The notes under the pieces were generated by a model that was given only the letters and a program-made list of their open reading frames with translations, did no database searches and was not told the origin of the DNA. Positions 37,408 through 43,527 of a stretch of DNA of 64,000 nt are shown piece after piece. A program made the translations under genes and the position numbers. Origin of the DNA: Porphyromonas sp. HMSC065F10 (lineage in GTDB: Bacteria; Bacteroidota; Bacteroidia; Bacteroidales; Porphyromonadaceae). The stretch lies in contig NZ_KV793752.1 in NCBI RefSeq assembly GCF_001808555.1, forward strand, positions 2,474 through 66,473. The letters run 5' to 3'. Positions within the stretch are counted from its first letter, which is position 1; the number at the start of each line of letters is the position of its first letter.

Positions 37408-38541
37408 ATGGGACGCAAAACCCGTGACAAGAGTGCCTGGTACTCCTTCCTGTCCAGGATGGGGATCCTGAGGATTGATCGCTATATCATCTGGCGCTTC
37501 CTCTCTACCTTCCTCTTCACCCTCGCCCTCATCATGGCAATTATTGTAGTGGTGGACGTGCAGGAGAAGCTGGACAACTTTATGAATCCTCTCCTGACTA
37601 TGCGCGAGATCATCGCCTACTACATTGCGCTGATCCCGTACTTCGCCATCCTACTGGCACCGCTATTCATCTTCATTGCGTGTGTCTTCGTGACGAGTAA
37701 GCTAGCAGCCCGGTCGGAGATCATTGCGATGTCATCGGCGGGGATGAGCTTTAATAGGCTGCTTCGTCCCTATATGATTGCGGCGGCCATTTTGTCGGCC
37801 TGCTTCTTTATCCTCTCCAGTGAGGTGATCCCCTATCTCAATAGGACACGCATCGACTTCACCAATCAGTGGGTGTACAATAGGGAGGTGAAGCAGGGGG
37901 ACAATGTCCAGCTGGCTGTCCAGCCGGGTGTAAACGCATTCTTCAGCACCTATGACAAAGACAGCTACACCGGCTACAATTTCTCCCTTGAGCAATTTGA
38001 GGACAATACGCTCAGCAGCCGCTTGACCGCTCGGCGCATTGAGTATCACCCTGACAGTATCTATCACTGGACTGTCTACGACTACCACATAAGAGATTTC
38101 CATGGACTGGTAGAGAAGGATACGATGGGTGATCAGCTCGATACTCTGCTGATGATCACCCCGCAGGATATCCTCATCTCCCCTGAGGATGGGGAAAAGC
38201 TTACGACAGGTCAGCTCTATACCTATATACAAGCGCAGGAAAAGAGGGGTATGGGGAATATCAAAAACTTTCAGGTCGAGTATCACAGGCGATTTGCCAG
38301 CATCCCTGCTGCATTCATCCTCACGCTGATCGGTGTCTGTCTCTCCGCACGTAAGGTAAAGGGGGGCATTGGACTCAATGTTGCCCTTGGACTGCTGATG
38401 GCCTTTGCCTACATCCTCTTCTACACCATCTCAGCCTCTTACGCCATCAGTGGGGCTATGTCTCCCTTTATGGCTGCTTGGCTCCCCAACCTGATCTTTA
38501 TCCCCATCGCAATCTTCCTCTACTGGCGCGCACCGAGGTGA
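37408..38541 (+). CDS. LptF/LptG family permease
   Basis: A 377-residue inner-membrane protein of the YjgP/YjgQ family, forming the permease of the lipopolysaccharide export ABC transporter with LptB. There are three hydrophobic segments near the N-terminus (about 20-45, 60-90, 110-135), a large periplasmic beta-jellyroll region (about 140-300), and three more membrane segments to the C-terminus, the standard 3+3 topology. Typical motifs: LDRYIIWRFLSTFLFTLALIMAIIVVVDVQEKLDNF and RRFASIPAAFILTLIGVCLSARKVKGG. It lies between tgt and priA; whether it is LptF or LptG is uncertain. Confidence 0.9.
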   Translation: MGRKTRDKSAWYSFLSRMGILRIDRYIIWRFLSTFLFTLALIMAIIVVVDVQEKLDNFMNPLLTMREIIAYYIALIPYFAILLAPLFIFIACVFVTSKLAARSEIIAMSSAGMSFNRLLRPYMIAAAILSACFFILSSEVIPYLNRTRIDFTNQWVYNREVKQGDNVQLAVQPGVNAFFSTYDKDSYTGYNFSLEQFEDNTLSSRLTARRIEYHPDSIYHWTVYDYHIRDFHGLVEKDTMGDQLDTLLMITPQDILISPEDGEKLTTGQLYTYIQAQEKRGMGNIKNFQVEYHRRFASIPAAFILTLIGVCLSARKVKGGIGLNVALGLLMAFAYILFYTISASYAISGAMSPFMAAWLPNLIFIPIAIFLYWRAPR

Positions 38542-38542
38542 G

Positions 38543-40912
38543 ATGAAAAAGGGCACCTACAGGTACTATGGGGTGCTGCTTGGGCTCCCTCTCGGCACAC
38601 CGATATTTACCTATCGGTGCGAGGAGGATGAGGTGTCACCGGACGAATTGCTTGGGCGAGTGGTCCTGGTCCCGCTAGGTGCAGGGAAGATTGTCTCCGG
38701 TGTGGTCTGGAGCTATCAGGGTACGGTCTCTCCTCTTCCGGTCGGCAAGGTCAAGAGTATCCGCAAGGTGCTCTCCCATCCTGCCATACCTTTGTCTGTG
38801 CGGAAGTTCTGGAGCTGGGTCGCTTCCTACTATATGTGCAGCCTTGGAGATGTGCTTCGAGCTGCTCTGCCGGCTCCCTTCCGACCGGAGGGAGGACAAC
38901 GCTATGTGCTGCTGGATAGTGCCATAGGAGACGAAGCCGAAGTCTTGCGGAAGGAGCTGGGGACGTCATCCTTCTCACTAAAGGAGCTCAAGCAACTATT
39001 TCCTGACGATTATGCCGATCTCTACTCTTTGTGGTCCGAGGAGGGAAGTGCCGTGCCATACGACAAGGGCATCGGTGGAGGCGGAGCCCCTGTTAATGAA
39101 AGAGGGTGGGCCATCGGTCCTCTTATCCATCAGGTTGAGACTTTAGAGACGGTGCGGAAGTCGCTTAAGCGTAGCCCCCAAGTGCTTGAGGCACTTGATC
39201 GCTTAGCATCCGACCCTGAGGGGAGCGATCTCTTCTTCTCTACTCTCGCTGAGGTCTCAGACTATCTTGAGGTCTCAGCGTATGTAGTCGGGAGACTGAG
39301 AGAGTGCGGAGCCATTGAGGAGAGAGAGCGGGCTGAGGAGGTCTTCTCCGGTGAGACACCGAGCGGGGGACCACACCGAGATGGGATAATGCCCGACCTG
39401 ACGGGGCGTCAGATCCTGCTGCTTCATATGCCTCGCTCCAGAGCTTGTGAGCGACTGCCCCTACACCATCTCTATGAGGAGGTCACTCAGTCGAGAGGGC
39501 AGGCGTTGCTCCTCTTCCCTACATTAGAGAGGCTAAGAGAGGTTGAGGGAGAGATAAAGGAGGTCTTTGGGTCATCATACTTCCCCTACCACAGTGGTGT
39601 CTCTCAGTCGGTTAGGCAGCGATCCTACCTGGCGGCATGGTGCCAGCTATCCGGACTCTTCGTGGGACTCCGGTCGGCAGTTTGGCTCCCTCTGGGATCT
39701 CTTAGCGAGGTGGTGGTGATAGATAGTGAGCATCGTGGGTATAGACAATGGGAGCCGGCACCACGCTTTACCGCCTCCGATGCTGTGCTGGTGCTTGCCG
39801 CGCTGTCCGATGCTAAGTCCTTGATCGTCTCAGCCACACCCTCGGTGGAGTGTATGGCTCAGGTGCTGAGGGGTAAGTATGCCCTCCAGACGATAGCCCC
39901 CGAAGCAAACGGAGGTAGGGTGTCGCTACAGACAGTCAGTATGAGGACCGCCTTTGATGACAATCAGGTACACGCTCGACTCTTATCAGACGTAATGGTG
40001 AGTGCCATTAGGGACACGATAGCAATGAGAGGGAAGGTACTCCTTCTCTATCAGCGTACCGGGTATGCCCGATCCATTGAGTGCAGTCATTGTGGCGAGC
40101 AACTCCTCTGCCCCCGTTGCCACACTGCCTTAAGACTGTCGTCAGATGCCAAGGTCATGGAGTGTCCTCTCTGCGGCTACAAGTCACCGCTCCCCACGAG
40201 ATGCCCTCACTGTGATCAACCCACTCTCAGACCTATCGGGACAGGCATTGATCGACTGCAGGAGGCTGTGAGCCATTACTTCGGCGGAGTACAGGTCGCT
40301 CTGGTGGAGTCGGAAGATAAGGTGCCGAGGGCAGATATTTTGCTCTGCCCCGACTACGATCCCCCCGTCAGTCTCCTACACAAGGTCTCTATGGTGGGAG
40401 TGGTCCAGCTTGATCTGCTCCTTACTCTCCCGGATCATCGGGCAGCCGAGCGAGCCTACCGGATGCTGACCACCTGTAGGGATGAGCTGCGAGATGGGAG
40501 CAAGCTGATCGTCCAGTACTTCTCCAAGTCCCCTGCACTTGATGCGTTCTTAGAGGACGACTACGATACCTTTATGAAGTACGAGATGGAGGAGCGCCAT
40601 CAGCTGCTCTTCCCTCCCTTCTGTCGCATCACGGACATTGTGCTTGAGTCAAGGAGTCAGGCTCTGATCAGCAGGTTTGCTGAGCGTGTGGCAAGGGAGC
40701 TGTCCCGACTGCTTCCTGATGTCCAGATCTTAGGACCTACTCCGCTCCCGGTCAATAAGCGAGGAGTCTCTTTTGGCTACCGGGTGACGCTATTGATCCC
40801 CTTAGATGTTGCGCTGTCGCCTCTCCGCACCTTCCTGAGTAGCACTATGGAGGGCTGGGTAAGGTCCTCCGGCATCCGCTCCCTCCACTGTTACTATGAT
40901 GTGGACCCATAG
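38543..40912 (+). CDS. priA: PriA-like primosomal protein with degenerate helicase motifs
   Basis: A 789-residue PriA homologue, normally the 3'-5' helicase that restarts stalled forks. The N-terminal DNA-binding domain (FWSWVASYYMCSLGDVLRAALPAPFRP) and the complete zinc module (Cys514, 517, 523, 526, 541, 544, 554, 557) are intact. Motif III SATPSVE and a motif IV-like LLYQRTGYAR remain. Motif I, normally GVTGSGKT, reads MPRSRACER (296-304). Motif II DEEH reads DSEH (394-397). Motif V, GTQMxxKGHDF, is replaced by CPDYDPPVSLLHK near 602. Motif VI, QVAGRAGR, is replaced by TTCRDELRDGS (643-653). ATP hydrolysis is therefore unlikely, while DNA and protein binding may persist. No frameshift is present, and the gene starts 1 bp after the permease gene. 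Confidence 0.88.
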   Translation: MKKGTYRYYGVLLGLPLGTPIFTYRCEEDEVSPDELLGRVVLVPLGAGKIVSGVVWSYQGTVSPLPVGKVKSIRKVLSHPAIPLSVRKFWSWVASYYMCSLGDVLRAALPAPFRPEGGQRYVLLDSAIGDEAEVLRKELGTSSFSLKELKQLFPDDYADLYSLWSEEGSAVPYDKGIGGGGAPVNERGWAIGPLIHQVETLETVRKSLKRSPQVLEALDRLASDPEGSDLFFSTLAEVSDYLEVSAYVVGRLRECGAIEERERAEEVFSGETPSGGPHRDGIMPDLTGRQILLLHMPRSRACERLPLHHLYEEVTQSRGQALLLFPTLERLREVEGEIKEVFGSSYFPYHSGVSQSVRQRSYLAAWCQLSGLFVGLRSAVWLPLGSLSEVVVIDSEHRGYRQWEPAPRFTASDAVLVLAALSDAKSLIVSATPSVECMAQVLRGKYALQTIAPEANGGRVSLQTVSMRTAFDDNQVHARLLSDVMVSAIRDTIAMRGKVLLLYQRTGYARSIECSHCGEQLLCPRCHTALRLSSDAKVMECPLCGYKSPLPTRCPHCDQPTLRPIGTGIDRLQEAVSHYFGGVQVALVESEDKVPRADILLCPDYDPPVSLLHKVSMVGVVQLDLLLTLPDHRAAERAYRMLTTCRDELRDGSKLIVQYFSKSPALDAFLEDDYDTFMKYEMEERHQLLFPPFCRITDIVLESRSQALISRFAERVARELSRLLPDVQILGPTPLPVNKRGVSFGYRVTLLIPLDVALSPLRTFLSSTMEGWVRSSGIRSLHCYYDVDP

Positions 40913-41150: not shown

Positions 41151-42074
41151 ATGATCAATCGATCGCTCATTCGTGTCAAGGTACTACAGGTACTCTATAA
41201 TTTTTATCATACGAAGTCGATGTCAATCTCGACTGCCCAGGAGACACTGGAGGCTGCTATGGAGAGCGACTATAGGGTCTATCTCTACCTCTGCGGTTTA
41301 CCACTGGACTTCTCAGACTTGGCTCGCAAGCTGATTGGGATTGAGGAGGGGAAGTTTTCCCCTGACCCAGATCGTCTCGCGCTGCTGAGGGCATTAGAGG
41401 CCAATCCTGTGGTGGAGTACCTCGAGGGTGATCAAGACTTCGTCGTGCGACGGATGGCTACATCTATCTTCCACAACCCCGATCTGAGTGAGCTCCATGA
41501 GATGGTGCTCTCAGAGACACTTGGCGAGCAGCCTGTGAGTGCTTCTCAGCTGGAGACCTTTGATGGAGCGCGCCAGTTCTATCGCGATCTATATGGTACC
41601 AAGTATCGGCAGTCGGATAGGGTCTACGACATTCTGGAGACGACGGATGCCTTTGTCACCGATGCTGATCTACCTGTGGTTTTCTCTTTCGTCACCAAGT
41701 TTTATAACGGCCTGGATCCTGAGAAGGAGGTCTCTAAGCTGTTGCGCCCCAAGTTTGCCTCCAAGAGCGATGGTGACTTCGGTCCGACTCTGCTGCGAGC
41801 TGCCATAGACAATAAAGAGGCCTACCGGGAGAGGATTAGTAAGTACTTCAAGGGCTGGGACGCTGAGCGGGTGAGCGAAGTGGACTACCTGCTCATGCAG
41901 ATGGCAATGGCTGAGGCTATCGCCTTCCCCACCATTGCCACGACGGTGACGATCAATGAGTATCTCAATCTTGCTCACTCCTTTAGCTCCGAAAACTCTT
42001 ATGTCTTTATCAATGGCATCCTCTTTAAGCTCTTCACAGACCTTAAGGAAGAGGGTATGATCATTGGAGACTAA
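41151..42074 (+). CDS. nusB: transcription antitermination protein NusB, long Bacteroidetes form
   Basis: RNA-binding Nus factor for rRNA antitermination. At 307 residues it is about twice the E. coli length, as in other Bacteroidetes. It starts RSLIRVKVLQVLYNFYHTK, carries an extended central region, and has the NusB helical core at the C-terminus (VSEVDYLLMQMAMAEAIAFPTIATTVTINEYLNLAHSFSSENSYVFINGILFKL). It heads the nusB-yajC-ybbR-coaE-DUF5606 unit. Confidence 0.92.
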   Translation: MINRSLIRVKVLQVLYNFYHTKSMSISTAQETLEAAMESDYRVYLYLCGLPLDFSDLARKLIGIEEGKFSPDPDRLALLRALEANPVVEYLEGDQDFVVRRMATSIFHNPDLSELHEMVLSETLGEQPVSASQLETFDGARQFYRDLYGTKYRQSDRVYDILETTDAFVTDADLPVVFSFVTKFYNGLDPEKEVSKLLRPKFASKSDGDFGPTLLRAAIDNKEAYRERISKYFKGWDAERVSEVDYLLMQMAMAEAIAFPTIATTVTINEYLNLAHSFSSENSYVFINGILFKLFTDLKEEGMIIGD

Positions 42075-42465: not shown

Positions 42466-43527
42466 ATGATAGGACTTAGACGCAGGCTGAGAGAGGGCCG
42501 CTTCACCGCCTACTTTATGAGAGATAGGCGGTGGGTGGCGCTCTCTATCTGTCTGCTCATCTCTGTCTTCTTCTGGATCGTTGCAGCGATTGATGACCCG
42601 AGAGGCTATACTAAGGAGGTCGCAGTCCAGCTGGATAAGCCTATCCTCCCTACGAACTACCGGATGACAGACCTCTCTCAGTACCCTGAGGTAGTCTATG
42701 TCAAGGTTCATGCTAAGGGAGGTGCTCTGCTGAGGTATACCATTAATCAGATCGGACGCTCCTCCTATAGAGTGCGCCCTACAGTGGATACCACTCAGCT
42801 ACTAACTGAGGGCGGTCAGTATCGACTGAGAGAGGCAGACCTTAAGCGGCTGCTCCTGAGCAAGCCTCTCCACGATATCTCACGGATGGATCTCAATACT
42901 GCGACTGACGTCACGATCTTTCCGGAGGACATCTCCTTCTCCTACGAGCCTCTCAGTGAGGGGAAGGCAGAGGTGCTATTTGGCAGCCAGATTGACTTTG
43001 GCGGTCATCGCAATTTTAAGCTCTCTGACACAATCAGCCTAATTCCTTCATCGGTACGGGTATTTGGGGTCAAGAGTGACCTGGAGGACTTTATGGCAGC
43101 CGGTGGTGTCCTCACGACGGATACGATCGGTCTGAGGATAGACAACCCCGGGCGTGATACCATTCGCGTTGCCGTAGTGACGCCATCCGGTATTGATGCG
43201 CGTCCCGACTCCGTCGACGTTATTCTGAAGACCAACGAGCTGGTGTACCACAGCTTTACTACTTCCGACATTGAGATCCGGAATCTTCCAGCCGGCTATG
43301 ACCTGACTCTCCTTCCCATGCAGGTCACGGTGACCTATTTGGTGCCAAAGGATAGGGTGGGAGAGAAAACACTCTTTGACCCGAGACTATATATCGATGC
43401 TCGCGAAGCATTTGACGAAGCCAACAGAAAGTCTTTAGTGCTCCACGTCGACAAGATTCCGTCTCAGGTGGATATGATCCAGGTGGTACCTGACCGGCTC
43501 GACTTTATCCTCCGTGAGAGGAAGTGA
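42466..43527 (+). CDS. YbbR-like domain protein
   Basis: A 353-residue membrane-anchored protein: short basic N-terminus, one membrane helix (VALSICLLISVFFWIVAAI, about 26-44), then beta-rich repeats typical of YbbR domains (ISFSYEPLSEGKAEV; IPSSVRVFGVKSDLEDF; IEIRNLPAGYDLTLLPMQVTVTYLVP). Bacteroidetes homologues lie next to yajC and coaE as here. The function is poorly known; in Firmicutes YbbR (CdaR) regulates c-di-AMP synthesis, but no diadenylate cyclase is adjacent. Confidence 0.85.
   Translation: MIGLRRRLREGRFTAYFMRDRRWVALSICLLISVFFWIVAAIDDPRGYTKEVAVQLDKPILPTNYRMTDLSQYPEVVYVKVHAKGGALLRYTINQIGRSSYRVRPTVDTTQLLTEGGQYRLREADLKRLLLSKPLHDISRMDLNTATDVTIFPEDISFSYEPLSEGKAEVLFGSQIDFGGHRNFKLSDTISLIPSSVRVFGVKSDLEDFMAAGGVLTTDTIGLRIDNPGRDTIRVAVVTPSGIDARPDSVDVILKTNELVYHSFTTSDIEIRNLPAGYDLTLLPMQVTVTYLVPKDRVGEKTLFDPRLYIDAREAFDEANRKSLVLHVDKIPSQVDMIQVVPDRLDFILRERK

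Follow-up and report, generated by a model that had tools for sequence, protein, structure and literature searches.

Loss of the PriA helicase motifs throughout the family of Porphyromonas

The strong conservation of the PriA helicase motifs is the reason why unwinding by PriA is held to be important in nature. The priA gene of Porphyromonas sp. HMSC065F10, found within the 64,000-nucleotide stretch of DNA analysed here (the window), raises the question of what a PriA can be once its helicase motifs are gone while its frame is still open. That the gene is a priA with a frame open for 789 codons, as the first-pass annotation had it, holds: the protein scores 235.6 bits against TIGR00595 (priA), above the cut-off of 230.35, and aligns with E. 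coli PriA over nearly its full length at 24% identity. The Pfam models PriA_3primeBD and PriA_C are both above cut-off, and the 3'BD, the eight-cysteine zinc region and the CTD expected of a PriA are all present (Table 1), whereas none of the Pfam DEAD, Helicase_C and PriA zinc-ribbon models matches the protein at E 0.001. The 3'BD model also matches 30 of 30 family members scanned. In the AlphaFold model (pLDDT 77.7) the two RecA-like lobes of the PriA fold are predicted to be present. Foldseek ranks 1-9 for this model are all PriA structures, with 8fak, 6dgd, 6dcr and 4nl4 at the top; upon realignment with VIA, PriA chains reach Z 22.5-23.9 over 496-590 residues, and Mfd chains equal or slightly exceed these Z values on about 316 core residues.

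Table 1. Coordinates in the window of priA, its domains and motifs, and the genes on either side
Feature	Position	Strand	Basis
lptF/lptG-type gene upstream of priA	37408..38541	+	PF03739
priA, PriA pseudohelicase, single copy in the genome, 789 aa plus stop	38543..40912	+	ATG start, open frame
3' DNA-binding domain (3'BD), residues 11-110	38573..38872	+	PF17764, E 1.4e-18
Former motif I / Walker A, HMPRSRACER, residues 295-304, P-loop erased	39425..39454	+	alignment
Former motif II, DSEH, residues 394-397	39722..39733	+	alignment and direct reading of the translation
Counterpart of the fork-junction loop, YRQWEPAPRFTAS, residues 400-412, retained	39740..39778	+	alignment; role from the available text of PMC10175261
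Motif III, SATPSVE, residues 430-436, retained	39830..39850	+	alignment
Cysteine-rich zinc region, eight Cys (C514 to C557), retained	40082..40213	+	sequence patterns, alignment
Former motif V, LCPDYDPPVSLL, residues 601-612	40343..40378	+	alignment
Former motif VI, TCRDELRD, residues 644-651, arginine finger lost	40472..40495	+	alignment
PriA C-terminal domain (CTD), residues 692-789	40616..40909	+	PF18074, E 1.1e-8
nusB-type gene downstream of priA	41151..42074	+	PF01029

The lptF/lptG-type gene ends one base ahead of priA and the two are likely on the same transcript. The gene order lptF/lptG-priA-nusB is common to the window and Porphyromonas bennonis (L133). Behind nusB lies an open reading frame of 353 aa (42466-43527), which is conserved in P. 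bennonis with a dN/dS of 0.068 and has no Pfam match at E 1e-5.

Which parts of the motor are missing becomes clear from a comparison with 62 PriAs of Bacteroidales from outside the family. Where these read HGVTSSGKTE in motif I, QVSGRAGR in motif VI and IGTQMVSKGLDF in motif V, the window PriA has HMPRSRACER, TCRDELRD and LCPDYDPPVSLL, in agreement with the first-pass annotation, which had given motif I as MPRSRACER and motifs V and VI as replaced. Its reading of motif II as DSEH was likewise correct; we read this motif from the sequence itself, the automatic alignment being off by one column there. The catalytic glutamate of motif II is thus replaced by serine in the window genome and in P. 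bennonis, and DEE is kept in many relatives within the genus. Moreover, gaps in the alignment show that the window PriA lacks about 14 residues of lobe 2 which E. coli PriA has directly ahead of motif V. The same annotation had considered that functional motifs might be displaced elsewhere in the protein. None was found: there is no displaced Walker A in the window PriA, and the one string of G-x-GK type that it has, GAGKI, lies within the 3'BD (residue 46). The protein therefore carries neither the Walker A of active SF2 helicases (GxTxSGKT) nor their motif VI with the arginine finger (QxxGRxGR), and it combines lost ATPase motifs with retained DNA-binding parts, as a PriA pseudohelicase does.

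The same division runs through the family. In canonical PriAs, 160 alignment columns reach a conservation of 90% or more. Over all of these, mean retention in the family is 0.58; it falls to 0.14 in motif I, 0.24 in Ia, 0.25 in V and 0.21 in VI, and the 0.49 of motif II is an underestimate because the genus alignment is one column off there. Retention is 0.77 in the YKQxxPAPRxxAR loop, 0.75 in motif III, 0.79 in motif IV, 0.86 in DFRxxE and 1.00 for the eight zinc cysteines. The P-loop glycine and threonine are each kept in 3% of family PriAs, and the glycine and last arginine of motif VI in 0%, while the 'TPS' of motif III and the FPPF of the CTD are still present. In short, the parts erased are those for ATP (the P-loop, the arginine finger of motif VI and most of motif V); the DNA-binding domain, SATPSVE and the eight zinc cysteines, listed as kept by the first-pass annotation, are indeed there by Pfam and alignment. 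The retained YKQ..PR loop we infer to be the fork-wedging loop of E. coli PriA. Within the genus, the place of the erased P-loop is taken by a conserved, lineage-specific sequence, I-x-L-x-H...S...R-[IV]-P. Its residues S299, R304 and P306 do not vary in the alignment of 10 of 11 genus PriAs (the eleventh, L043, differs), which suggests a new role rather than random decay.

How far does the loss extend? A single PriA is encoded in the window genome (2.12 Mb, 99.79% complete), and among the 38 family genomes searched, 12 of them in the genus, exactly one PriA was found (E 1e-20 or better) in 37. The remaining genome (G008), which is 89% complete, has no match, and another (G032) holds only a fragment (L094) that lacks the motif I region. 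In all 36 readable family PriAs motif I is absent, those of P. bennonis, Porphyromonas levii and Porphyromonas somerae among them. The question whether the losses are fixed in Porphyromonas is thus answered beyond its terms, as the loss of the motor reaches the whole family rather than the window genome or the genus. A frameshift or assembly artefact was considered and rejected: P. bennonis DSM 23058, an independent assembly, carries the same priA at 78% identity, open and without the motifs, as are 34 further family PriAs.

In the rest of the order, as sampled, motif I is nearly universal. Our sample of the order comprised 149 Bacteroidales genomes, of which 143 gave a PriA match; two of these belong to the family and 141 lie outside it. 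The six without a match are 70-95% complete and, like G008 and the fragment L094, were left out of the motif I count. Motif I is present in 140 of the 141 others (61/62 and 79/79). The 79 genomes contribute 81 loci: 76 match the motif I pattern directly, three have a variant GKT loop, and the last two are fragments of genes, motif I being found in each case on the partner fragment from the same genome. One locus missed by the zinc pattern (L121) was checked within this set. As background only, at least 246 of 247 genomes sampled across the phylum have a PriA match. The sole exception among the 141 (L103, G127:C5:148300-152500) comes from a Bacteroidales genome of 1.2 Mb in 5 contigs; it reads HKNISLGEIE in motif I and QMVEKVKR in motif VI, with DEEH, SATPS and the zinc cysteines kept, and its loss of motif I is separate from that of the family. 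Another PriA (L105, G148:C21:23400-27600) has kept Walker A and reads QISEKACR in motif VI, a possible case of partial or early motor loss.

We placed these losses on a tree of 96 PriAs, computed quickly under LG+G4 with the motif columns removed and rows L094, L114 and L130 dropped. The two genera of the family lie opposite the other 60 rows across a branch with SH-aLRT 91, so that one ancestral loss suffices for the family, and two losses of motif I explain the whole tree. Since the tree is quick and many of its inner branches are weak, a single family-wide loss of motif I is the simplest reading and no proof.

Selection on the gene was assessed by pairwise Nei-Gojobori dN/dS in eight family pairs. 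Values for the whole gene range from 0.063 to 0.205, those of three of the eight pairs being soft because dS is above 2; across the region of the dead ATP site, the seven computable pairs gave 0.070-0.195. Canonical PriA pairs gave 0.050 and 0.112, two further pairs being saturated. In the pair of the window genome and P. bennonis, priA stands at 0.205 against 0.034 for tgt, 0.045 for lptF/G, 0.092 for nusB and 0.068 for the next gene. The family priA is hence under purifying selection, somewhat relaxed in this pair, and constrained yet faster than its neighbours. The first-pass annotation had named a second intact priA together with relaxed selection as the finding that would speak against its reading; of the two, a second PriA is absent from the 38 genomes, and the relaxation is there to the limited degree just given.

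A PriA without ATPase has a precedent. Primosomes still assemble with E. coli PriA whose ATPase is dead (PMC4504706), and the K230A variant was used for DnaB loading in vitro according to the available text of PMC10175261, which agrees with what the first-pass annotation had stated. In that text, E. coli PriA inserts a loop of its helicase domain 1 as a wedge at the fork junction. The fork arms are gripped by the 3'BD, WH and CTD, and a pore built from the CRR, HD2 and CTD takes the lagging-strand ssDNA. Canonical Bacteroidales and E. coli PriAs share with those of the family their orthology, domain order, eight zinc cysteines, fork-junction loop and CTD; they differ in having intact motifs I, V and VI and the part of motif II that the family has lost. 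The PriA of Deinococcus radiodurans is likewise full-length with damaged motor motifs. It has no ATPase or unwinding activity, yet its affinities for ssDNA and forks lie within a factor of about two of those measured for E. coli PriA, and it makes contact with DnaB (PMC4504706). As described in that paper, motif I of the Deinococcus protein is still in position but damaged by a change of Lys to Arg, and its motif II is poor, whereas in the family other sequence stands where the P-loop and motifs V and VI would be, and the lobe 2 residues are missing. Furthermore, the family belongs to a separate phylum, and the relatives that surround it have kept their motor. The suggestion that this would be a natural ATPase-free PriA thus stands as far as the family-wide loss of its motifs goes, and such a PriA is not without precedent: a PriA pseudohelicase is already known from Deinococcus-Thermus, that of the family being more eroded and family-wide. 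In the part of the open-access literature available to us we found no report of a Porphyromonas PriA without a motor, nor any account of a loss that spans the family and has gone so deep. Actinobacterial PriA without helicase motifs, from yet another phylum, is also annotated as lacking helicase activity.

Taken from sequence, the window PriA, the orthologous and sole PriA of its genome, is likely a pseudohelicase that arose in the family's ancestor; it would mark forks and start the reloading of DnaB without unwinding them. With the motor lost and the DNA-binding and zinc parts kept, it probably serves restart as a passive landing pad and not as a helicase. The protein would still recognise forks and D-loops, hold the lagging strand and recruit DnaB, with DciA as the likely loader. 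Loading would need lagging-strand ssDNA that is already exposed or that is opened by another helicase such as RecG; a duplex lagging strand would not be unwound by PriA itself. Against this passive role we count the alterations in motif V and in part of lobe 2, which in E. coli contributes to the frame of the ssDNA pore, the faster evolution of priA relative to its neighbours in the pair with P. bennonis, and the lysine of the P-loop column that survives in 11 of 36 family PriAs, along with the Glu/Asp of motif II in many.

The other restart and fork factors were searched in the same 38 genomes. PriC is absent in 38/38, so that no PriC backup is visible, and the searches for PriC and for a second PriA, intact copies included, showed no restart initiator besides the single PriA. 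RecG is above cut-off in 36/38; in E. coli, helicase-dead priA is linked to recG, and loss of RecG as an explanation is rejected since RecG is present. DciA was matched by PF05258 in 29/38 genomes, without a match in the window genome, and by a genus alignment in 11 of 12 genus genomes, the window genome included (G000:C41:139944-140273, outside the window). Genus DciA has diverged below the PF05258 threshold in the window genome and others; a missing DnaB loader is thereby rejected as well. DciA and PriA may be evolving fast together.

Three other explanations deserve weighing. PriA could have been repurposed as a scaffold that binds forks or D-loops for some other job, with the new motif at the P-loop site as partner interface. 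The conserved stretch with its invariant S299, R304 and P306 would fit such a role; as the protein has the full PriA architecture and is the only PriA present, and as the searches for PriC and PriA showed no other restart initiator, we think this unlikely. A decaying relic, dispensable and drifting toward loss while DnaB is reloaded by another route, is a still slimmer prospect. The faster evolution of the protein compared with four neighbours and the PriA-less G008 could be taken in its favour. Nonetheless, frames are open in all 36 full-length family PriAs extracted (one tblastn alignment of priA in G014 counted an internal TAG), dN/dS is far below 1 in every domain, cysteines and DNA-binding residues are invariant across deep divergence, and the absence of PriC speaks against a bypass. 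In Porphyromonas gingivalis, the gene named priA in the literature is PG2032, and it is reported to be expressed and co-regulated with dnaA, ssb, dnaE and dnaN according to the available text of PMC2637884; the main text of an essential-gene paper on this species (PMC3547785) does not name PriA.

Finally, the motor could be active with an unusual nucleotide site, a weak ATPase working through the DEE/DSE residues and a shifted lysine. The DEE of many genus members and the lysines in the P-loop column are what it could draw on. With the P-loop glycine and threonine and the motif VI residues lost, and given that even K230R abolishes the ATPase of E. coli PriA, as stated in PMC4504706, we find this most improbable.

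The passive landing pad thus remains the reading we prefer. A bolder version of it is doubtful, though worth stating: the whole family, seemingly without PriC, would restart solely via a motor-free PriA that acts as a passive structural switch. Its P-loop, rebuilt into a lineage-specific contact (the conserved sequence given above for the one genus), would probably serve a new partner for fork opening or for the hand-over of DnaB/DciA. Porphyromonas and its kin are bacteria of the mouth and gut. One family with a single, constrained, motor-less PriA, in an order whose other members have the motor, amounts to a natural separation-of-function experiment that bears on the purpose of fork unwinding by PriA, and P. 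bennonis, P. levii and P. somerae are among its members in culture.
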